From: a virus
Strand: one strand, 5' to 3'
Length of the DNA: 27,792 bases
Virus record (IMG/VR): IMGVR_UViG_3300001533_002010
Coordinates: 1-27,792 of that record
The notes beneath the pieces are model-generated. The model saw only the letters and a program-made list of their open reading frames with translations. It was not told the DNA's origin and ran no database searches. A program made the translations under genes and the position numbers. Numbering within the stretch: position 1 is the stretch's first letter; each line of letters starts with the position of its first letter. Below are positions 3,322 through 26,934 of this stretch, piece by piece.

Positions 3322-5312
3322 AAAATCGTCCCTCGTCCATCGTCGATTGTCCATTGCCGTCGCCGTTGCCGATGACGGACGGGGAGCGGGCGCAGTTGAC
3401 GCCGGCGCCGCGGGTAGCGGTCGATGAATGGATGGAGACGCGGTATCGGCTGCCGAAGGCGACCAGCGATGTCACGGGGCTGTATTCGTTTGACTACACG
3501 CCGTTTTTTCGCGAGCCGATGCAGCGGCTCAGTGAGCCGCCGGTCAAGGTGGGCATCGAGGCGTGCACCCAGGGCGGCAAGAGTACGCTGATGGTCGGGG
3601 TGTTCGGCTACCTGATCGAGTGCGATCCGGGGCCGACGCTGTTTGTGATGCCGCGCGAAACGGACGTCAAGCGCCGCGTCAACACCCGGATCCGTCCGGT
3701 GTTTGAGGCCAACGCCGACTTGATGCGGCACGTGAAGGCCCAGGACATCCGCAACATCAACATCGGCAAAGAGACGGTGTTCGACAACATGATCGCGTTT
3801 CTGGCCTGGAGCACGTCGCCGGCGGCGCTGGCGGACAACCCGATCTGCAATCTGCTGATCGATGAGCCGGGCAAGTTTGAGCAACTGGCCACCGGCGAGG
3901 ACACGTTTGAATCGCTGGAAGAACGATCGCGGACGTTCGCGATGCGGGCGCGGATGTTTTACGCGACCAGCCCGCAGGACGAGGGGGACATGACCGATAA
4001 GCAGTTTCGCAGCGGCACCGACGAGCGGTGGGCCGTGCCGTGCCTGCTGTGCGGGGCGTGGCATGAGATCGCCGCTACACGCCAGACGCTGCATCTGGAG
4101 GTGGACAACGACGGTAAGCTGTTTGACGCCGACGCCTACAAAGAGGGTGCCGCCGCGGCGTGGTACCAGTGCCCGCACTGCCAACGGCGATGGACCGAGC
4201 GGCAGCGGGGCCAATCGGTCGCCGCCGGCAAGTGGGTGGCCAAGACGCAGACCTTGCAGCCGGACGGCAAGCTCGTCGGGCCGCGGCCGCAGACCCGGCA
4301 TTTTACCTATCGCGAGAACGCGATGATGCTGCATCCGCGTTTTTGGCAGGCGTCGATGGAGGCGGCCAAGCTGGCCGCGGCGCTGGCCGAACGCGACGCC
4401 GGGAGCCTGGGCAAATACCGTAACTATGTCCGCAACCAAAAGGCGATGCCGTGGGTCGTGGTGGCCCAGACGATCAAGGATGAGACGCTGGCGTCGCGGG
4501 TGATCGACCTGCCGCGGCGGTGCGTGCCGGCCGAGGCCAAGATGCTGGTGGCCAGCGGCGACGTGCACGTCAACTTCGAGGGCGCCCTGCGGATCGACTA
4601 TGAGGTGCGGGCGTTTGGCGATGACCTGATCAACTGGGTGGTGCTGGCCGGGTCGGCGACCGATTGGGACACGTTCTGGCAGACGCTGATGCTGCCGTTC
4701 CCGTGGGCCGCCGACAGCGCCGCCGAGGAGCTGGACGTGGCGACGGTGTTTGTCGATGCGGGCGACCAGGCCGATACCGTCTATCAGCAGTGCGGGCGGT
4801 ACCCCGGCTGGGCGTGGCCGATCAAGGGCGTCGAGAGTCAGCGGACGCCGTTGTATTTGTCCAACCTGGAAAAAGTGCATGAGCAGCGTCACCGGCGCGG
4901 CAAGCGGCGGATGGCGGCGGCCCGCCTCACCGGCCAGCAACTGGTCCTGATCGACCAGAGTTTTTTTTCGGAGATGATCGTCAACTGGACCGACCCCGAC
5001 AAACAGACTGCCGGGGCGACGTACTATTACAGCCAGATTGTTGAGGATACGGCCGGGGCGTACTTCCGCGAGTTTGGCGGGATGCACCGCGTGCAGGTGG
5101 CACGGGGCAGCCATCGCGTCTGGACGTGGCGGCCGCGCGGCAAGGCGACGCCGGTGCACTTTCACGATACCGCCCGGTACGCGGCGGCGGCGGCGTGGTT
5201 TAACAAGGCCCACCTGATGCGGTCGGTCAGCGGCGACGACCTGCCGCCGGCACTGGCCCGGCGACGGCTGCCGCAGCGGGCGCGGCGCGTGGGCCGCATT
5301 GAGCGGGATTAA
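3318..5312 (+). CDS. Terminase large subunit, GpA family
   Basis: The ATPase/nuclease motor that packages and cuts phage DNA. ATPase signs, numbered from the ATG at 3318: Walker A TQGGKST (residues 84-90), Walker B NLLIDEP (about 178-184), and a coupling motif FYATSP (214-219). A treble-clef-like pair CLLC (242-245) and CPHC (285-288) sits where GpA proteins carry a zinc site. The nuclease region begins at VASGDVH (Asp 415), with a second acid in VFVDAGDQ (Asp 480). Length 664 fits the family. The start is uncertain: residues 3-12 are encoded by a reverse-orientation heptad repeat (3326-3353). An in-frame ATG at 3372 gives a 646-residue protein without it. Neither start has a good ribosome binding site; the first overlaps the upstream stop. 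The stop codon lies at the edge of a decamer repeat. Confidence 0.93.
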   Translation: MKNRPSSIVDCPLPSPLPMTDGERAQLTPAPRVAVDEWMETRYRLPKATSDVTGLYSFDYTPFFREPMQRLSEPPVKVGIEACTQGGKSTLMVGVFGYLIECDPGPTLFVMPRETDVKRRVNTRIRPVFEANADLMRHVKAQDIRNINIGKETVFDNMIAFLAWSTSPAALADNPICNLLIDEPGKFEQLATGEDTFESLEERSRTFAMRARMFYATSPQDEGDMTDKQFRSGTDERWAVPCLLCGAWHEIAATRQTLHLEVDNDGKLFDADAYKEGAAAAWYQCPHCQRRWTERQRGQSVAAGKWVAKTQTLQPDGKLVGPRPQTRHFTYRENAMMLHPRFWQASMEAAKLAAALAERDAGSLGKYRNYVRNQKAMPWVVVAQTIKDETLASRVIDLPRRCVPAEAKMLVASGDVHVNFEGALRIDYEVRAFGDDLINWVVLAGSATDWDTFWQTLMLPFPWAADSAAEELDVATVFVDAGDQADTVYQQCGRYPGWAWPIKGVESQRTPLYLSNLEKVHEQRHRRGKRRMAAARLTGQQLVLIDQSFFSEMIVNWTDPDKQTAGATYYYSQIVEDTAGAYFREFGGMHRVQVARGSHRVWTWRPRGKATPVHFHDTARYAAAAAWFNKAHLMRSVSGDDLPPALARRRLPQRARRVGRIERD

Positions 5313-5360
5313 ACAGCATTAAACAGGATTAAACAGCATTAAACAGGATTAAACAGGATA
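5311..5360 (+). repeat. Decamer tandem repeat, five units of AAACAGSATT
   Basis: Five 10-bp units alternate AAACAGCATT and AAACAGGATT, the last ending GATA. The TAA stop of TerL (5310-5312) is formed by the same text (GATTAAACAG). Unit length differs from the heptads and octads elsewhere, but the placement against a stop codon is the same. Confidence 0.9.
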
Positions 5361-5393
5361 AAAAAAAACACTTTAACACGAAAGGATTGACTG

Positions 5394-11260: not shown

Positions 11261-11318
11261 GACGATGGACGATGGACGACGTGAAGAATTAAGAAAATCG
11301 TCAATCGTCAATCGTCAA
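11261..11318 (+). repeat. Heptad repeats in both related forms
   Basis: Two GACGATG units and one GACGACG (11261-11281) are followed by GTGAAGAATTAAG and then three TCGTCAA units (11298-11318). TCGTCAA differs by one base from TCGTCCA, the reverse-complement form of the first array, so both orientations of one heptad family are present in one gap. Confidence 0.85.
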
Positions 11319-11337
11319 TCGATAAGGAAACCTGCCG

Positions 11338-11637: not shown

Positions 11638-11712
11638 GAATTAAGAACTCAAGAACCCAAGAACGCAAGAACCCAAGAACTCAAGAACTCAAGAATGAAG
11701 AATTGAGAATGA
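11635..11712 (+). repeat. Octad repeat array AAGAACNC
   Basis: The TGA of the upstream gene opens a purine-rich array of units such as AAGAACTC, AAGAACCC and AAGAACGC, about seven in a row. It is closed by AAGAATGAAGAATTGAGAAT. It fills the gap to the next start. Similar arrays lie at 12711, 17155, 18969, 20090, 22812 and 23743. Confidence 0.9.
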
Positions 11713-12713: not shown

Positions 12714-12926
12714 CATCGACGATGGACGAATTTAATGAAGAACACAAGAACTCAAGAACTCAAGAACTCAAGAACCCAAGAATGAAGAATTGAGAATGAA
12801 GAAATTTAAGCCACGAATAAACACAAACAAAAAAAAATAATCGGTGAAAATCCGTGGTTATAAAAAATTTGAAATAGGAAATTTGAAACAGGAAACTGAA
12901 AACATAACACTGGCCGGGCGGGTTAA
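12711..12926 (+). repeat. Composite intergenic repeat region
   Basis: The stop codon is followed by a heptad pair (GACGATGGACGAA), an octad array (AAGAACAC, AAGAACTC, AAGAACCC), then GAAGAATTGAGAATGAAG. After that come AT-rich text with AATCCGTGGTTA (compare 27630) and GGAAATTTGAAACAGGAAACTGAAA. No gene is seen in these 213 bases. The part 12718-12797 is a longer copy of 22812-22875. Confidence 0.85.
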
Positions 12927-13193
12927 ATGAGCGATACAAAACAACAACTTGAAGCATCGAAGTCGGAACTGGAAAGCCGTGTTGCGACACTCCAGACCAA
13001 AGACGGCGCGGATGCGTTTGTGGCTGATAAACTGTCGCGGATTGAGGCGGCTTTGCCGCAGTTGTCGCCGTCGATGCAATGGCACGCCGGACGGGTATGC
13101 CAGCGCCTGCGAACAGAGCCTGAAGATGTGGTCGCGGAGGAGATAAATCGGCTGGAGGCCAAACGCGATGCAGAGACGGAGGTACGGCGCTAA
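12927..13193 (+). CDS. Small coiled-coil protein
   Basis: This 88-residue, strongly helical, charged protein (KQQLEASKSELESRVATLQ at the front, EEINRLEAKRDAETEVRR at the end) has a central segment with Trp and Cys. No recognisable family. Its stop overlaps the start of the fibre-like gene (TAATG), so the two are probably made together; it could be a chaperone or partner for that protein. No strong ribosome binding site is visible before the ATG. Confidence 0.55.
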   Translation: MSDTKQQLEASKSELESRVATLQTKDGADAFVADKLSRIEAALPQLSPSMQWHAGRVCQRLRTEPEDVVAEEINRLEAKRDAETEVRR

Positions 13194-14920
13194 TGGCAAC
13201 ACGCACCTTTACCACGACGGGGAACTTTAGCGATTCGGACAAATGGGCCGACGGCCTTGAGCCGGGTGCGGGCGATACCGTGGTGATTGCAGACGGTGTG
13301 GTCTGTACGATTAACGTCAATACGCCTTCCTTGGCGCACATCGGCACAGCCGGTACAGCCGGTACGGGGCGATGCGAGCTCGCTGACGGTGTTACCGTGA
13401 CGTTTGAGGCGATGGAAGCCGGGGCGTGTGGCTCCAATGGGTTTTTTCTATACGAGGGCACAGCGGCCGCCACGCTGGCCGGTACGGTCGTCGGCGGCAG
13501 CGGCGGGTCATTTGCAGTAGGCTGCCGCAATAAATCTACCGGCACACTCAACATCACCGGCGACTGTACAGGCGGCAGTTTCAATTATGCATACGGCAGC
13601 TTCAACAGCGCTGGCGGCACGATAAACATCACCGGCGACTGTACAGGCGGCAGTTCCAATCATGCATACGGCACCCTCAACAACGCTGGCGGCACACTCA
13701 ACATCACCGGCGACTGTACAGGCGGCAGTTCCGATTATGCATACGGCAGCTTCAACATCGCTGGCGGCACGATAAACATTGGCGGCGACAGCACAGGCGG
13801 CAGCGGATTGAACGCATACGGCAGCATCAACAACGCCGCCGGGACACTGAACATCATCGGCGACTCCATCGGCACAACAGCTATCGGGGCGTACCAGCGC
13901 GGCAGCAGCAACGCCGCCGGGACGATCCATATCCACGGCAAGGTCATTGGAGGAGCCACCTACGGCGTTTACATCCACTCCGATTCTCGCGGGCGTGCGT
14001 ATTTCTATGACGAGCTGGAGGATGGCACAGTCGTCGCGGCCCGCAACAACGCAGGGACGAGTGCTTATTGCTTTTTGGGTTATGGCAAGCAGTGGCTGGA
14101 CAACGCCAGTGAGCCGAAGGAGCTGCCAAGCTGGCTCATCACCGCCGAGGTCGAGAATGTCTATGATCTACAAATGATTCAGACGGCGGGACTTTTAGAA
14201 GGCAGGTTTGTCCAGACCGACGACATCACGATTGTTGCCGGGGAGACGGTCGCAAACGGAGGAATGAGCGACTTTGTTCCGATTGATGGGTTTGCCGGGG
14301 AGTTTACCGGATACGACACGGGAACGGGAATCCAGCACAGCATAGAGAATATTGAATCTCCCGCCGACGCGACATTTAACGGACTGTTCGAAGAGACAAC
14401 CGCGACGGCAAAACTGTTGTATATTCAGATGCCCAACGTAGCGATTGACGTCGGGACGGGTTTTTCCGCCGTTGTGCTCTGCTTAGTCAATGCTGGTCTA
14501 ATTTTCCGATGCTGGGCAAGAGGCAGCGTTAAGGCAATGTCTGGGCGGGGGCTTGTCGCTATCAACAACGGCGAAATAGAGGAATGCTATGCTCGCCTGA
14601 CAGACGGCACAAACCCGGTGGCGGAGCCGATTGCCGACAGCGGAACAGGAACCACTGAAAAGTGCTACCACAACAGAGAAGATGCGACACACGGCGTCTA
14701 TGTCATTGAGGCCAGCGCCAAAAATAAGAGTGCCTATGCGGGCTTTGACTTCGCGCGTGTTTGGAACATCGACAAAACAGAGACCCTCAACGACGGCTAT
14801 CCGTATTTAGACGGGCGTTCGGCGAGCGCCGCCGGGCTGGTCGGCGACGGGGCACTGGTAGGGGATGGGCCGTTGATCGGCGAGGCGGGGCTGATCGGCG
14901 AGGCGTTGATTTCGAATTGA
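13193..14920 (+). CDS. Beta-solenoid fibre-like protein with GLUG-like region
   Basis: This 575-residue protein has about six 25-residue repeats (residues 117-260) of the form GTLNITGDCTGGSSNHAYGS, as in parallel beta-helix or solenoid stalks. The first ~100 residues also look like beta-strand repeats (NFSDSDKWADG...). From about residue 430 there is a GLUG-like block, GLVAINNGEIEECYARLTDGT, ending FARVWNIDKTETLNDGYPYLDG. That ending is typical of large planctomycete and related surface proteins. The last 24 residues are four hexapeptides (LVGDGA, LVGDGP, LIGEAG, LIGEAL). There is no signal peptide. Position after the capsid gene and repeat architecture suggest a virion-surface or fibre protein; it is not a standard lambda gene. 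Confidence 0.6.
   Translation: MATRTFTTTGNFSDSDKWADGLEPGAGDTVVIADGVVCTINVNTPSLAHIGTAGTAGTGRCELADGVTVTFEAMEAGACGSNGFFLYEGTAAATLAGTVVGGSGGSFAVGCRNKSTGTLNITGDCTGGSFNYAYGSFNSAGGTINITGDCTGGSSNHAYGTLNNAGGTLNITGDCTGGSSDYAYGSFNIAGGTINIGGDSTGGSGLNAYGSINNAAGTLNIIGDSIGTTAIGAYQRGSSNAAGTIHIHGKVIGGATYGVYIHSDSRGRAYFYDELEDGTVVAARNNAGTSAYCFLGYGKQWLDNASEPKELPSWLITAEVENVYDLQMIQTAGLLEGRFVQTDDITIVAGETVANGGMSDFVPIDGFAGEFTGYDTGTGIQHSIENIESPADATFNGLFEETTATAKLLYIQMPNVAIDVGTGFSAVVLCLVNAGLIFRCWARGSVKAMSGRGLVAINNGEIEECYARLTDGTNPVAEPIADSGTGTTEKCYHNREDATHGVYVIEASAKNKSAYAGFDFARVWNIDKTETLNDGYPYLDGRSASAAGLVGDGALVGDGPLIGEAGLIGEALISN
13541..13970 (+). repeat. 75-bp in-frame tandem repeat inside the fibre-like gene
   Basis: Units begin at 13541, 13616, 13691, 13766 and 13841, with a weaker unit near 13919. 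The first three are nearly identical at DNA level (the stretch from GGCACACTCAACATCACCGG onward), the later ones diverge. The length of 75 bp keeps frame, so unit gain or loss would lengthen or shorten the solenoid. Confidence 0.85.
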
Positions 14921-17157: not shown

Positions 17158-17209
17158 CGATGGAAGAATTAAGAACCCAAGAACTCAAGAACTTAAGAAT
17201 TAAGAATTG
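17155..17209 (+). repeat. Short heptad/octad repeat gap
   Basis: The TGA stop opens TGACGATGGAAGAATTAAG, followed by AAGAACCC, AAGAACTC and AAGAACTT octads and AAGAATTAAGAATTG. The next start codon follows directly at 17210. Confidence 0.85.
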
Positions 17210-18537: not shown

Positions 18538-18971
18538 GCCAACCGATCATAGAACAGATTGCCGTCGCGATTGCTGACCTGGTGGACGGCATTACCGGGC
18601 TGACGGCCCTGCGGCCCAAGCGGGTGTTCTTTCTCGACGACGTCACCGGCGACGGGACGGTCGTGGTCACGCAGGATCAGCCGGAAAAGGGCGAATCGAC
18701 CCTGTACACGCAGGACTGGCTGCAGCCGTTTAGCCTGACGGCCCTGCTGACCGACAGCGACACGGCCACCGACAGTATCGATACGCGGCTCAACGCCATC
18801 CGCAGCGACCTGGAAAAGGCACTGCTGGCCGACCCGACGCTGGGCGGGCTGGCCATCGACACGGTGGTCGAGCCGCCGACGTACTTTAACGCCGAGGACC
18901 TGACGGGGGTCGAGGTGAAGATCACGGTGCACTACCGCACGCAATACGATGACCCGTATGCGCAGGCGTAA
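18534..18971 (+). CDS. Tail terminator protein, gpU-like
   Basis: This 145-residue protein sits between Z-like and tail tube genes. Its outline, two N-terminal helices (EQIAVAIADLVDGIT), a central YTQDWLQPFSLTALLTDSDTATDSIDTRLNAI segment and a final strand EVKITVHYRTQYDDPY, matches tail terminators of the gpU type. Lambda U is 131 residues. These form a hexameric ring that stops tail growth at the length set by the tape measure. The stop TAA is the first unit of a long octad array. Confidence 0.75.
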   Translation: MSQPIIEQIAVAIADLVDGITGLTALRPKRVFFLDDVTGDGTVVVTQDQPEKGESTLYTQDWLQPFSLTALLTDSDTATDSIDTRLNAIRSDLEKALLADPTLGGLAIDTVVEPPTYFNAEDLTGVEVKITVHYRTQYDDPYAQA

Positions 18972-19140
18972 GAACTTAAGAACTTAAGAACGCAAGAACG
19001 CAAGAACCCAAGAACGCAAGAACCCAAGAACGCAAGAACCCAAGAACCCAAGAACCCAAGAACCCAAGAACGCAAGAATGCAAGAACGCAAGAACGCAAG
19101 AATGAAGAAAATAATCAATAATCAATAAACAATAATCAAT
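18969..19140 (+). repeat. Longest octad array, followed by TAATCAA heptads
   Basis: From the TAA stop, about sixteen octads (AAGAACTT, AAGAACGC, AAGAACCC, AAGAATGC) run to about 19104. Then come four heptads, TAATCAA, TAATCAA, TAAACAA, TAATCAA (19112-19139). No gene is seen. Both repeat families therefore share one gap. Confidence 0.9.
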
Positions 19141-19159: not shown

Positions 19160-20092
19160 ATGGCACTATCTGCCCCCTTAGCGGCCCGCCGCAATACGCT
19201 GCTGGTCAAACTCGAGACCGCCGCCGGTACCGCCGAGACCACTGGCCTCTTGGCCCTGCTGGCCTTTGACGTCAAGGCCGATCCGACCGCCGACTGGACC
19301 GAACGCAAGGGCACCGGCCAGCGGAGCGGACACACCGTCGTCGGCGCCCTGGGCGCGCGGACGGGACAAGTGACCTTCACCGCCGAGCTGCGGTGCGGCA
19401 CCGGCACGGTGCTGGACCCGGCGCTGGCGGCCTGCCTGCAGGCGTGCGGGGCGCTGAAGACCAGCGAAAGCTACGCCCAGGACACCGCCAACGCCCGCGC
19501 CGCGGAGGCGCGGGCGATCACGATCTGGCGAGAGATCGACGGCGTCCGCAAGGCCCTCGTCGGCGCCGCCGGCAACGTGACGATCAAGGCCGAAAGCGGC
19601 CAGCGCGTGCTGCTGGAGTTTGAGTTTAACGGACGCTGGATCGCCCCGACCGACCAGACGCTCTCGACGGCCGACCCGGTGACGACCACGCCGATGCGGG
19701 CCGCCAGCGGCACGTTTACCCTCGGCACCGAGACGATCAAAATCAACAGCTTTTCGCTCAACTGGGGCGCGACCCCGGCGCTGCGCGGCGATGTCAACGC
19801 TGCCGGCGGCGTGGCCTGCTACGACGTGCTGGACTTTGACCCGGAAGTGACGCTCGATCCGGAGTTTGACCGGGTCGCCGGGTATGACTTTTACGGCCTG
19901 TGGCTGGCCGGGACGACCGCGGCGATTGTCTTTGCCGCCGTCGCCGGCGACCGCACCGCGACGATCACCCTGCCGGCGGTCAATATCAAGTCCCTCGGCG
20001 AGGCCGAGCGGGACGGGATCGCGGCGCTGGACTACACCGGCGCCTGCATCAACGACGGGGCGACCCCGGCGGTGACCCTGGCGATTACGTGA
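19160..20092 (+). CDS. Major tail tube protein
   Basis: This 310-residue protein is in the place of lambda V. The start LAARRNTLLVKLETAAGTAET, the block GALGARTGQVTFTAELRCGTG, VLLEFEFNGRWIAP, and the repeated beta pattern LGTETIKINSFSLNWG fit the family of phage tail tube proteins of about 300 residues (Phage_tube_2 type). Hexameric rings of it stack to make the tail. The ATG at 19160 follows ACGGAGATTAAACC, a good site. GC-rich and well conserved in codon use. Confidence 0.78.
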   Translation: MALSAPLAARRNTLLVKLETAAGTAETTGLLALLAFDVKADPTADWTERKGTGQRSGHTVVGALGARTGQVTFTAELRCGTGTVLDPALAACLQACGALKTSESYAQDTANARAAEARAITIWREIDGVRKALVGAAGNVTIKAESGQRVLLEFEFNGRWIAPTDQTLSTADPVTTTPMRAASGTFTLGTETIKINSFSLNWGATPALRGDVNAAGGVACYDVLDFDPEVTLDPEFDRVAGYDFYGLWLAGTTAAIVFAAVAGDRTATITLPAVNIKSLGEAERDGIAALDYTGACINDGATPAVTLAIT

Positions 20093-20242
20093 GAATCGAC
20101 GATTGACGACCGACGAAGGACGACGTGAAGAATGAAGAACCCAAGAACCCAAGAACCCAAGAACGCAAGAATGCAAGAACCCAAGAACCCAAGAACTTAA
20201 GAACTTAAGAAATTAAGAACGCAAGAATTGAGGAAATAGAAA
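20090..20242 (+). repeat. Degenerate heptads plus octad array
   Basis: After the TGA come four degenerate heptads GACGATT, GACGACC, GACGAAG, GACGACG (20098-20125), then TGAAGAATG and about twelve octads (AAGAACCC, AAGAACGC, AAGAATGC, AAGAACTT). The array ends at the GAGGAAATAG ribosome binding site of the next gene. Confidence 0.88.
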
Positions 20243-20437
20243 ATGGAATTAACGACTGCACAAAAGGCGACGCTGATCCGCGACCATCATGGCGGGTTTG
20301 CCGACGCCACCGACGCCCAGTGCCTGGCCGTCTGGGACGCTCTGCCGGACGCGACACGGCAGGGGTACGCCGGAAAAATCAAAGATCAAAAAGAAAAAAT
20401 CAAAGATGCGGAGGCCGCCGCCGGCGGCACAAAATAA
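20243..20437 (+). CDS. Small helical protein between tail tube and chaperone genes
   Basis: This 64-residue protein starts behind GAGGAAATAGAAA. The front (TTAQKATLIRDHHGGFADATDAQCLAVWDALPDA) is helical and the end (KIKDQKEKIKDAEAAAGGTK) charged. No recognised family. The layout of a small gene between tube and G genes occurs in various siphophages. The TAA stop is the first three bases of a TAATCAA heptad array. Confidence 0.6.
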   Translation: MELTTAQKATLIRDHHGGFADATDAQCLAVWDALPDATRQGYAGKIKDQKEKIKDAEAAAGGTK

Positions 20438-20469
20438 TCAATAATCAATAATCAATAATCAATCGTCAA
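20435..20469 (+). repeat. Heptad array (TAATCAA)4 TCGTCAA
   Basis: Four perfect TAATCAA units starting exactly at the stop codon, then one TCGTCAA unit. The array joins the two heptad forms in register, which is direct evidence that they are one family. GGAG of the next ribosome binding site follows immediately. Confidence 0.93.
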
Positions 20470-20479
20470 TGGAGTTATT

Positions 20480-20884
20480 ATGCCTTTAGCGTTAGACCCG
20501 CAGCAGACGTTTTCCGTCGTGCTGGAAAGTGACAAGTCCCAGCCGCGGCCGCCGCGGTGGGTGTTTCGGTATTTAACCGCCCGGCAATTCCAACGGGTTG
20601 CCCGGCTGCAGGCGTCGCTGGATGAGGCCGCCGGTGATGAGGATGTCATCGATCGGCTGGTGGACGCGGTGCGGATCGGCCTGGTGGAGGTCGTCGATCT
20701 GGTCAACCAGCAGGGCTACTCCGTGACGGCGGCCGACGATCTGGCGGACGTGCTGACGGTCTTTGAAATTCAAGAGTTGATCGTCAAGCTCACGCAGCAG
20801 TTGCCGACATTTGAGGATAAAAAAAAATTCGACTCCTCGTCGCCCTCCGCTACGGCGGCGCCTGCAAACGATGCAAAGGCATAG
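20480..20884 (+). CDS. Tail assembly chaperone, gpG-like (unshifted product)
   Basis: This 134-residue acidic helical protein lies between tail tube and tape measure, as lambda G does. The core (RYLTARQFQRVARLQASLDEAAG...VVDLVNQQGYSVTAADDLADVLTVFEIQELIVKLTQQL) is followed by EDKKKF and a short Ser/Ala tail. Start at the ATG at 20480 behind GGAGTTATT. In lambda, G binds the tape measure and keeps it soluble during assembly. A run of nine A near the end allows a -1 shift into a second long frame. Confidence 0.75.
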   Translation: MPLALDPQQTFSVVLESDKSQPRPPRWVFRYLTARQFQRVARLQASLDEAAGDEDVIDRLVDAVRIGLVEVVDLVNQQGYSVTAADDLADVLTVFEIQELIVKLTQQLPTFEDKKKFDSSSPSATAAPANDAKA

Positions 20885-21183
20885 CCCGGTGCACCGATCC
20901 GCCGACGGCGCACAACCCCATCGAGCTGGTGTGCCCGACCTGCGAGGGCGACGGCTGCGAGGCGTGCGACGACGGGCGGCTGCTGATTACCGCCTGCCCG
21001 TTCGGTCAGCTCGATCAGGATGTGCTGCTGCTGGCCGATCTGGCCGGGCTGTACAAAAAGGGACTGCCGCCGGCCGACGGCGGGGCGCTCGACCAGACGA
21101 TGAACTTTGTCGCCGCCTGCCGGTTCTACTGGAACGAAGAGGCGGCCTGGAAAACCAAATTAGGAATATTGGATCATGGCTAA
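20480..21183 (+). CDS. Frameshifted chaperone, gpGT-like fusion with Cys-rich extension
   Basis: A -1 shift on the A run at 20819-20827 joins 116 codons of the G-like frame to 118 codons of the next frame, giving about 234 residues. The -1 frame has a TAA at 20818-20820 just before the slip site. After it the frame is open without interruption to a TAA at 21181-21183, overlapping the tape measure start by eight bases. The extension carries CKRCKGIARC and CPTCEGDGCEACDDG, a DnaJ-like Cys pattern, then helices ending FVAACRFYWNEEAAWKTK, as in T domains. Lambda makes GT in the same way. The shift itself is inferred from the frames and slip site. Confidence 0.72.
20819..20827 (+). other. Slippery A9 site for -1 frameshift
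   Basis: Nine A bases spell AAA AAA AAA in the G-like frame. The heptamer A AAA AAA (20821-20827) allows both tRNAs to re-pair after a one-base slip back. A stop in the -1 frame just upstream (20818-20820) shows the second frame is entered only here. No strong downstream stem is obvious by eye. Confidence 0.7.
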
Positions 21184-22798
21184 ACAAGATGTCAACGTGC
21201 TGATCCGGGCGCGGGATGAGGCCAGCAAAAAATTCGGGATGATCGGCCGCAGTGCGATGAGTATGGGGCAGATGATCCGCCGGGCCGCGGGGCTGGCGGG
21301 GGTCTATTTCGGCACGCGCGCCATCGTCAACACCATGCGCGAGTCGCTGGCCCTGTACAGCAAACAGATCGAGGCGGAGATCAAGCTCCAGCAGGCGTAC
21401 ATCGCCACCGGCGGCGCGGTCGGGCTGGCCACCGATGAGATGAAGAAATACGCCGCCGAGCTGCAAAAGGTTACCCGATTTGGCGATGAGGTGACGATCG
21501 AGGGGATGAGCCTGCTGATGACCTTCAAGAACATTCAGGGCGACGCCTTCAAACGCACGACCGAGCTGGCGATGGACCTCAATACCGCGATGGGCAAGGG
21601 CACCGGCTCGCTGAAAGAAACGATGTTGCAGCTTGGCAAGGCACTGAACGACCCGATTTTGGGACTGACGCAGCTTCGGCGTGTCGGCGTGTCGTTTACC
21701 GACGCGCAGGCCGACCAGATTCGGCAGTTGGTCAAAACGAACGATCTGCTCGGCGCTCAAACGATTATGATGGACGAACTGACCAGTCAGTTTGGCGGCC
21801 AGGCGCGGGCGGCGGTCAACAGCTACGCCGGGGCCGTCGAGCGGATGCGCAACGCCGTCGGCGACCTGAAGGAACGCATCGGCCAGGCGCTGACGCCGAC
21901 GATGCAGCGGTTTGCCGACAATATGAAGGTGTGGGCCGAGCGCAACGCCGACACTATGTATCGCTGGGTGGCCACCGGCATCAGCTACGTCGAGCTGATC
22001 ACGGACAGCTTTAAATCCTTGATTGCCTACCTGCGGACGGATTTTAAGAGCGCCATCGAATGGGTCTGGGACGCCTTCCTGCGCGTGATGAAACAGGCCG
22101 TCCACTCGGCCATTGATCTGGCTATCGCCGCCGGAAAGGGCATTGCCCGCGGCATAAAAATAGGGATGGACGCGACAGGCGGCAGGGAACGCCGCATTTC
22201 TGCGGAAGCAGAGCGCATCTATTTTGAACGCGGCGGCCCCTCTAAAAAGTCCGGGATTCGTCGCACGCCTTCAGATGCGGCGCTTTTTAACGAAGCACTC
22301 GAAGAGGCCTTTGTCCGGGAAAGAGAAAAGACGACCGAAAGCCTTATTGGGTCCACCTTGCGATTAATGGCCGGGGAGTGGGAAAAGACCATGGCGGACT
22401 TGCGGAAGTCCATGCCCGATGAGCTGGGCAAGTCGGTCGATGCGGCGATGGAGAAGCACCGCCAGCGGCTGGAGGCCATCGCCGCCGGTCAGTACGGCCG
22501 CCCGGAGATGCCGGGCGCGGGCGCCGGGCTGCTGCCCTTTGGCGGCGGGGCGGCGGGTGGACTGGGCGGCCTCGGCGGTGTCGCCGCCGTCGAGAGCCGG
22601 TTTTTAACCGGCGGCGGGATCAAAGACCCCACCGAGGGGATGACGGAATGGGAGCGGCGGACATGGGAATTGGAGCAGCGCCGTGAAAGGCGAGACAAAG
22701 AAGCCATGACTTATTTTAAACACTTGGAATATCTAAAGGATATGGGCAGCCGCCACGCCGCCGACCGGCTGGAATTGAAGCCTGCACGGTTTAAGTAG
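21176..22798 (+). CDS. Tape measure protein
   Basis: This 540-residue protein follows the G/GT pair. The N-terminal helix RARDEASKKFGMIGRSAMSM and the block TFKNIQGDAF...MGKGTGSLKETMLQLGKALNDPILGLTQLRRVGVSFTDAQADQIRQL...ELTSQFGGQARAA are classic signs of lambda-type tail length tape measures. Hydrophobic stretches occur near residues 35-50 and 310-330. A Gly-rich segment (about 440-470) precedes a charged end. It is shorter than lambda H (853), so the tail should be shorter; at about 1.5 angstroms per residue, roughly 80 nm (inference). The ATG at 21176 lies inside the end of the GT frame. Confidence 0.88.
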   Translation: MAKQDVNVLIRARDEASKKFGMIGRSAMSMGQMIRRAAGLAGVYFGTRAIVNTMRESLALYSKQIEAEIKLQQAYIATGGAVGLATDEMKKYAAELQKVTRFGDEVTIEGMSLLMTFKNIQGDAFKRTTELAMDLNTAMGKGTGSLKETMLQLGKALNDPILGLTQLRRVGVSFTDAQADQIRQLVKTNDLLGAQTIMMDELTSQFGGQARAAVNSYAGAVERMRNAVGDLKERIGQALTPTMQRFADNMKVWAERNADTMYRWVATGISYVELITDSFKSLIAYLRTDFKSAIEWVWDAFLRVMKQAVHSAIDLAIAAGKGIARGIKIGMDATGGRERRISAEAERIYFERGGPSKKSGIRRTPSDAALFNEALEEAFVREREKTTESLIGSTLRLMAGEWEKTMADLRKSMPDELGKSVDAAMEKHRQRLEAIAAGQYGRPEMPGAGAGLLPFGGGAAGGLGGLGGVAAVESRFLTGGGIKDPTEGMTEWERRTWELEQRRERRDKEAMTYFKHLEYLKDMGSRHAADRLELKPARFK

Positions 22799-23745: not shown

Positions 23746-23865
23746 GAATTAAGAACACAAGAACCCATGAACCCAAGAACGCAAGAACCCAAGAACACAA
23801 GAACTCAAGAACTCAAGAACACAAGAACACAAGAATTAAGAATTTAAAATTAAGAATTTAGAATT
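23743..23865 (+). repeat. Octad array before the chitin-binding-like gene
   Basis: Starting at the TAA stop: AAGAATT, then units AAGAACAC, AAGAACCC, AAGAACGC, AAGAACTC, one of them changed to ATGAACCC. The array then decays into AATTAAGAATTTAAAATTAAG before the next ATG. No gene is present. Confidence 0.9.
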
Positions 23866-24984
23866 ATGTCAAAGACCTACGGACTGACCGAGCAGGACCG
23901 CCAGCGGCTCCAGCGGGCGCTGCGCTTTGTCGAAGACAACGCCCACCTCCTCCGCAGCTTCCGCCGCGTCCGCGGGATGCCGGCGGGGGGGGGCGGCGGC
24001 GGTACGTCGCTGCGCACGGCGTATTGTGCGGAGGATGCGCCGGACGGGACGGTGATAAGCTGCTGGCTGGATTACAACGGCCAGCCGGCAAAAGAATGGA
24101 ATCAAGATTATACCTTCCACTTGGGGCAATATGCCGAACACGACGGGGATGTGTACGAATCGCTGAAGGAGCTGAACCAAGACTATGAGCCGGGCGAGGC
24201 CGGGAGTGAGACGTGGTGGGAGGTTGTCGATGCGGGTACAACTGCCGAGGCATACGCGGCGGGGGTGACCTATGCGGCGGGCGGGCTGTGTACCAGTGGA
24301 GGAACGGCATACCGCAGCCTTAAAGATGATAATATTGCAAACACGCCTGCGTCATCCCCGGAATGGTGGACGGAGATTACAAAGGTCGATGTGGTCTGCC
24401 GGGTTGCCAATGGCCATCGGTTGGACTTTGCCTACCCGGTTTTGACGGCGGGCCAGCCCATTAACATCCAGCAAAAGGCCGGGCAATGGGACGCTGTGGC
24501 ATTGTTTGCAGGGGCGGAGGAATCGTGTGCCGAGGGCGGCCTTCTGGAGCTTATTAGCCATAGATTGACCGCCGAGCTATCAACCAGCAGCACCGATATG
24601 ATGGTGGCCGACCCTGGTTACGGACAGGGATTGCAATTTGACGCGAAAGCAAGTAGCGATTATATTATCCAGATTGACCTTATCTATTCGGCGGATGCGT
24701 CTATTAAGATTGACTTGAGCAATGCCGCCGCAGCAACTATTTCCGGTATATTCACAGGACACGATGGGGGCAGCTTCGCGGGCAAGGTTGTCACTGAATT
24801 TGAGTCCGCCGTTACATTTGCTGGAGGCGGGTATATCAAGGGAGAGCTTTTAATTAAGGCGACGGCCGCCGGCAAGATAAGTTTACGCTTTGGGGCGTCC
24901 GCCAACGGGCAAGAGTGTAAACTCCTGCCCGGCAGCAATCTACAGTACCGGAGGACGCACTATGTGTGGGTTGAGCCGGAATAA
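23866..24984 (+). CDS. Fibre-like protein with two CBM5/12-like modules
   Basis: This 372-residue protein starts with a helical, basic region (residues 1-37), then a Gly linker (41-46) encoded across a run of nine G. Two modules of the chitin-binding CBM5/12 pattern follow: residues about 78-121 (W...Y.LGQYAEHDGDVYESL...WWEV) and 129-171 (YAAGVTYAAGG...GTAYRSL...WWTEI). Residues about 230-372 form a beta-rich end (LSTSSTDMMVADPGYGQGLQFDAKASSDYIIQIDLIYS). A glycan-binding tail fibre is the likely role, with the modules as binding units; the C-terminal fold is not identified. Overlaps the next gene by 23 bases. Confidence 0.65.
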   Translation: MSKTYGLTEQDRQRLQRALRFVEDNAHLLRSFRRVRGMPAGGGGGGTSLRTAYCAEDAPDGTVISCWLDYNGQPAKEWNQDYTFHLGQYAEHDGDVYESLKELNQDYEPGEAGSETWWEVVDAGTTAEAYAAGVTYAAGGLCTSGGTAYRSLKDDNIANTPASSPEWWTEITKVDVVCRVANGHRLDFAYPVLTAGQPINIQQKAGQWDAVALFAGAEESCAEGGLLELISHRLTAELSTSSTDMMVADPGYGQGLQFDAKASSDYIIQIDLIYSADASIKIDLSNAAAATISGIFTGHDGGSFAGKVVTEFESAVTFAGGGYIKGELLIKATAAGKISLRFGASANGQECKLLPGSNLQYRRTHYVWVEPE

Positions 24985-26829: not shown

Positions 26830-26903
26830 AGTGACTGATCATTTCCCCTCGCACCGCCGTGGCCGCGGGATCGCCGGCACGACCCGCCCCCGGCATGTTT
26901 CAA

Positions 26904-26934
26904 TTGATTATTGATTATTGATTATTGATTATTG
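26904..26934 (+). repeat. Heptad array (TTGATTA)4, reverse of TAATCAA
   Basis: Four perfect TTGATTA units and TTG. This is the reverse complement of the arrays at 19112 and 20435, so here the element lies in the opposite orientation, in the gap that separates the late operon from the next transcription unit. The rest of 26830-26903 is GC-rich with no gene seen. Confidence 0.9.

Follow-up and report, generated by a model that had tools for sequence, protein, structure and literature searches.

In this study, a 27,792-nt stretch of viral DNA, hereafter the window, which belongs to the 36.5-kb record of an uncultured virus (IMGVR_UViG_3300001533_002010), was analysed for the way in which its tail assembly chaperone is expressed. 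Judging from the sequence and its relatives, we consider it moderately probable that the locus makes a pair of products, G (134 aa) and GT (234 aa), by transcriptional slippage at a run of nine adenines (A9), and that the T part carries a four-cysteine (Cys4) knuckle. Transcriptional slippage, possibly accompanied by ribosomal slippage, is favoured over classic -1 ribosomal frameshifting because slip runs among related phages peak at A9, sites with at least nine As are without strong hairpins, and both shift directions occur in one T family. The features concerned are as follows.

19160 to 20092, + strand: upstream tail protein gene (PHROG 290, minor tail protein, E=4.2e-11)
20480 to 20884, + strand: G part, tail assembly chaperone, 134 aa without slippage (ORF between the tail protein and the tape measure)
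20818 to 20820, + strand: TAA stop of the -1 frame, just 5' of the usable slip positions (sequence)
20819 to 20827, + strand: A9 slip site, containing the in-phase heptamer A AAA AAA at 20821-20827 (sequence)
20827 to 21183, + strand: T extension in the -1 frame, 118 aa and stop (ORF, coding signature, profile match)
20838 to 20860, + strand: weak 7-bp hairpin (folding; not stronger than shuffled sequences, z -0.4)
20863 to 20892, + strand: CKRCKGIARC, extra cysteines (alignment; not conserved in relatives)
20932 to 20967, + strand: conserved four-Cys knuckle CPTCEGDGCEAC (also in two relatives, L093 and L010; between two predicted strands)
21064 to 21096, + strand: LPPADGGALDQ core (alignment; common to zinc-less members of the same T family)
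21176 to 22798, + strand: tape measure protein, TMP (PHROG tape measure families, best E=1.2e-40)

In the 5' to 3' direction, the module consists of tail completion/neck, tail terminator, the PHROG 290 tail protein, a 64-aa ORF, the chaperone G and the tape measure, and by its position the product of the PHROG 290 gene is probably the tail tube protein. G is a small gene directly 5' of the tape measure gene, with an alternative frame overlapping its 3' end. Pfam and PHROG searches gave no significant match for G or for the fusion (GT); the AF2 model of G is of low confidence (pLDDT 58), and its BFVD matches include several annotated tail assembly or tape measure chaperones (E 0.01-0.2). No Rfam families or tRNAs were detected within the window. 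Short tandem arrays were noticed in the intergenic gaps at 11643-11702, 12734-12789, 17164-17206, 18970-19102, 20128-20237 and 23751-23866, with further ones at 11296-11321, 19110-19140, 20433-20463, 26903-26934 and 5306-5363; their units are of an 8-nt AAGAACCC type and a 7-nt AATAATC type, with one 10-nt GGATTAAACA array, and are alike across many gaps of the same module. A separate ORF, 13193-14920, harbors coding 75-nt repeats (25 aa) at 13540-13865.

In the chaperone frame the slip site reads GAT AAA AAA AAA TTC. The heptamer A AAA AAA follows the X XXY YYZ pattern in phase with the G frame, and the run also has the homopolymer length, about nine A or T, that is expected for transcriptional realignment. 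A stimulatory hairpin, typical of such sites but not obligatory, was not found 3' of the A9 of the window (z -0.4 and -0.2 in two foldings). Stops interrupt the -1 frame at 20812 and 20818-20820; from 20821 it is open, and its next stop is at 21181-21183, where the end of T overlaps the start of the TMP (ATG at 21176) by 8 nt. The predicted fusion comprises 116 + 118 = 234 aa, and the identical product would result whether ribosomes slip by -1 over the final two AAA codons or one A is inserted in the mRNA; around the junction, FEDKKKIRLLVALR, it would read ...TFEDKKKIRLLVALRYGG... (...FEDKKK-IRLLV...). The slip site and the open -1 frame with its preceding stop are exactly as the initial annotation described, and the fusion of about 234 residues and the 8-base overlap with the tape measure start, which it also proposed, are borne out by the sequence. 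Elsewhere on the + strand of the window, A9 runs were observed only at 5360-5368 and 12829-12837, both between ORFs and outside the main coding regions.

Taken by itself, the open -1 frame counts for little, because the +1 frame is likewise open over the same stretch (20781-21200, stop at 21201). Codon-usage log-likelihood over 20885-21180 was +29.8 for the -1 frame, -57.4 for the 0 frame and -47.3 for the +1 frame, and the GC content of the -1 frame at codon positions 1/2/3 was 0.66/0.48/0.84, which resembles that of the known genes (0.61/0.45/0.78 in the TMP). For comparison, loci with the same tail module were gathered by tape-measure alignments. Two of them, L093 (IMGVR_UViG_3300028920_000161) and L010 (IMGVR_UViG_3300031965_000253), both from uncultured phages, each combine a G gene with a slip site (A7C and A7, respectively) and a -1 extension in which a Cys knuckle precedes lP..G(G/A)..Q. 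When a profile made from these two T extensions only was searched against 531 ORFs of both strands, the -1 ORF of the window was the sole significant match (E=3.7e-6, next E=1); with the Cys region removed from the profile it still ranked first, at a non-significant E=0.2. On this genome codon signature and profile match, the -1 ORF is a real and conserved coding sequence, and there is support for a tail-chaperone fusion of the G/GT type with -1 access. In viral_contigs, searches with G, GT, the tail completion protein and TerL returned no close relatives, and none of GT was found among isolate phages; a single-protein search of genome_contigs with the TMP returned none, and a TMP alignment search of the same collection returned seven loci in bacterial genomes.

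The same arrangement with a canonical slip heptamer was present in 231 of the 323 TMP loci. Relatives retain a slip site together with an open alternative frame, as the proposed fusion required, with a run length that varies. In 117 clusters, which are not phylogenetically independent and were collected by a detector that registers only -1 arrangements with a canonical heptamer and may have misassigned some GC-rich loci, the slip-site A runs numbered 31 for A6, 13 for A7, 4 for A8, 22 for A9 and 3 for A10, giving a second peak at nine, while background A runs in the same loci fell steadily (293, 93, 23 and 1 for lengths six to nine). The A9 slip runs were found in all three codon phases (10/6/6). 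A strong downstream hairpin, taken as z below -2.5, accompanied 21 of 44 A6-7 clusters versus 0 of 25 clusters with A>=9 (p=8e-6), a contrast that was noticed post hoc and then tested on mostly the same loci. The second batch alone, with three A>=9 clusters and seven A6-7 clusters (one with a strong hairpin), was too small to replicate the contrast and neither confirmed nor contradicted it. Hairpins are likewise missing at A8 sites (26 loci, many near-identical), which means that nine is no strict boundary. Strong hairpins 3' of the slip site were recorded at L010, L093, L042, L053, L109, L025, L118 and L044, and not in the window. In L010, a 14-bp hairpin at 3521-3567 begins 6 nt past the A7, within the T frame, at the place where the window has its extra cysteines.

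Polymerase slippage predicts +1-frame T domains at A9, and this prediction was set before looking. Six T clusters (the L198 group, L314, L209, the L245 group, L317 and L195) display a +1-frame T at exactly A9; in each, both the G gene and the T domain are genuine, and in several no start codon is available for T. The individual loci seen with a +1 T domain behind an exact A9 were L198, L205, L206, L209, L245, L250, L314, L317 and L195. A profile of the T family that contains them gathered 118 loci, in which +1 access occurs only at A9 (16 loci) or at A8 (the isolate Cellulophaga phage phi39:1). For -1 access, the sites are A9/A10 (Bacteroides phage Bacuni_F1, an isolate, is among these), A8 and A7, the last mostly accompanied by hairpins. 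Counted as loci and not as independent events, +1 access, confined to A8-A9, was seen in 17 of 51 long-run loci versus 0 of 63 short-run loci. It is important to note that +1 was not seen in the T family of the window itself; the mixed direction was observed in a different T family, at the same locus. In Bacuni_F1 (L327, MT635598.1, 1214-1866), G and T, annotated as two hypothetical proteins, are joined at A9 in the -1 direction. Use of both directions among orthologues is the criterion of Antonov et al. for transcriptional realignment (PMC3711429), and bacterial RNA polymerase slips efficiently in vivo on nine As (PMC5009743). In the literature searched, whose coverage was partial, we found no description of transcriptional slippage for tail chaperones.

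We therefore give most weight to a mechanism, favoured on these comparative data, in which RNA polymerase would slip on the A9 and add one A (or remove two) in a minority of transcripts, and the slipped mRNAs would be translated normally into the same protein as a -1 ribosomal slip would yield. Ribosomes may contribute on the same A AAA AAA, and both mechanisms may act together at A9. By analogy with lambda, where the role of G/GT is known (PMC5009743, PMC4493119), the tape measure protein would be coated by many G and few GT, with the T part serving to recruit the tail tube protein. The single putative Cys4 zinc knuckle would probably fold or stabilise a small T domain rather than form a DnaJ chaperone module. 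It is only a little better than an even chance, in our judgement, that the G:GT ratio is set by polymerase slippage at a tuned A9 both here and in about one in five of the T clusters examined for this tape-measure family; on this view, either the ribosome (A6-7 with a hairpin) or the polymerase (A9, no hairpin) would run the switch, with T in -1 or +1. The initial annotation had proposed a programmed -1 frameshift as in lambda; its fusion in the -1 frame stands, and its ribosomal sense gives way to the comparative data, which point rather to slippage of RNA polymerase at A9.

A possible reading that we hold to be doubtful is classic programmed -1 ribosomal frameshifting, which would use the A AAA AAA at 20821-20827, the long A run taking the place of the hairpin, and would give the same GT product and role. 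It has on its side the in-phase heptamer, the lambda paradigm (PMC5009743) and the closest T relatives, in which strong hairpins lie 6 nt downstream of the slip (L093, A AAA AAC, z -4.8; L010, A AAA AAA, A7, z -6.4), a ribosomal signature. Ribosomes slip on A runs too, and the absence of a hairpin fits either mechanism if the run is slippery enough. This reading nevertheless leaves the peak at exactly nine As and the +1 T domains at A9 unexplained, and the hairpin of the relatives is absent from the window (z -0.4). It is very unlikely that the T extension is a separate gene expressed by re-initiation or coupling from its own start, the GTG at 20929: this start would give 84 aa in the T frame, which has no ATG, GTG or TTG before it, but the N-terminal part of the extension would be lost, L093 has no ATG, GTG or TTG in the T frame ahead of its Cys site, and T frames without a start before the domain are found in L245, L209, L314, L317 and L195. 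A separate extension gene with its own start, which would have counted against the fusion as first proposed, was not found among the homologues. That the break is a homopolymer assembly or sequencing error, the true run being A10 and the gene one ORF, is hardly credible: homopolymers are error-prone and the record is an uncultured virus contig, but A9 recurs in 22 T clusters (-1) and six (+1) from many samples and in the isolate Bacuni_F1, and in-frame fusions were seen in none of the 118 loci of the second T family.

Alongside polymerase slippage, the preferred reading assigns a cysteine-bearing T domain to the fusion. The T extension has nine Cys, and the knuckle pattern C-x2-C-x-G-x-G-C-x2-C is shared by three divergent phages (the window, L093 and L010); in the AF2 model of T, which is weak (pLDDT 62), strands at residues 35-37 and 53-55 flank it. 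From the motif and this model, the knuckle is a probable single zinc site. It resembles a modular insert placed after the slip junction and ahead of the core, because T domains with the same core and without the Cys insert exist (L131, L053, L109, L128 and L100). At least four Cys including a CxxC were recorded in 14 of 117 T clusters, and a double CxxC in 7 of 117 T clusters versus 0 of 117 matching G proteins. Cys pairs at the same place also occur in other T families, namely the DUF1799-type L013, L044, L111 and L118, and in L025 and L042, which suggests that a zinc-type T is uncommon, not unique. A DUF1799 (PF08809) identity for the T of the window was rejected, as no Pfam family matches the fusion.

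A DnaJ-type Cys-rich domain has four CxxCxGxG repeats and two zinc sites. Such an identity was rejected for the extension, which has one conserved CxxCxGxG with an adjacent CxxC and no fold match: structure searches with the T model gave no matches, and phmmer against the DnaJ-like BSD2 gave E=0.06. The sole match of the T-alignment search in viral_contigs, L090, was likewise set aside as an unrelated acidic protein with CPKCEGEGCDHC; since it carries this motif though unrelated, the motif itself is generic. With respect to zinc, the proposal of the initial annotation that the T part binds the metal remains probable from the conserved Cys4 motif, and loses the first motif, CKRC, which is not conserved in relatives. 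Its label of a DnaJ-like zinc domain comes down to a CxxCxGxG-type motif similarity with one of two motifs conserved, and its view that zinc binding is unusual for a T domain does not agree with Cys pairs in about one in eight T clusters, DUF1799-type included.

Textbooks present the G/GT switch as a ribosomal frameshift. Should a substantial group of phages use transcriptional slippage instead, annotation rules that seek only -1 heptamers would miss or misplace T domains, and cases in support of this gap are the +1 T domains at A9 and Bacuni_F1, whose two parts are listed as separate hypothetical proteins. If true, this would allow two ways of fixing the same protein ratio to be compared in nature. 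Additionally, the Cys knuckles suggest, from their sequences, that metal-dependent T domains exist.

With reference to known systems, the locus resembles lambda G/GT in that a single gene ahead of the tape measure encodes two nested products, with T reached in -1 near the 3' end of G. The lambda slip site is GGGAAAG. Unlike lambda, the window combines an A9 slip without a hairpin, a Cys4 knuckle in T and a comparative signature of polymerase slippage, and no sequence similarity to lambda G/GT was detected. L093 and L010 share the Cys4 knuckle, the lP..GG..Q core, the -1 access and the TMP family with the window, L010 also the same 8-nt overlap, but they slip at A7C/A7 with strong hairpins and are without the extra CKRC. 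DUF1799 (PF08809) T domains, such as those of L044 and L013, likewise follow a -1 slip before the TMP, with Cys pairs that lie past the slip site and ahead of the core, but the T core domain of the window is different. The DnaJ/BSD2 Cys-rich zinc domain shares the CxxCxGxG-type motif, which in the window, unlike there, sits in a frameshift extension. As in Thermus thermophilus dnaX and the IS630-type transposases, which use transcriptional realignment, the site is a long A/T run for which a downstream hairpin is not needed, and in IS630 both directions occur among orthologues.
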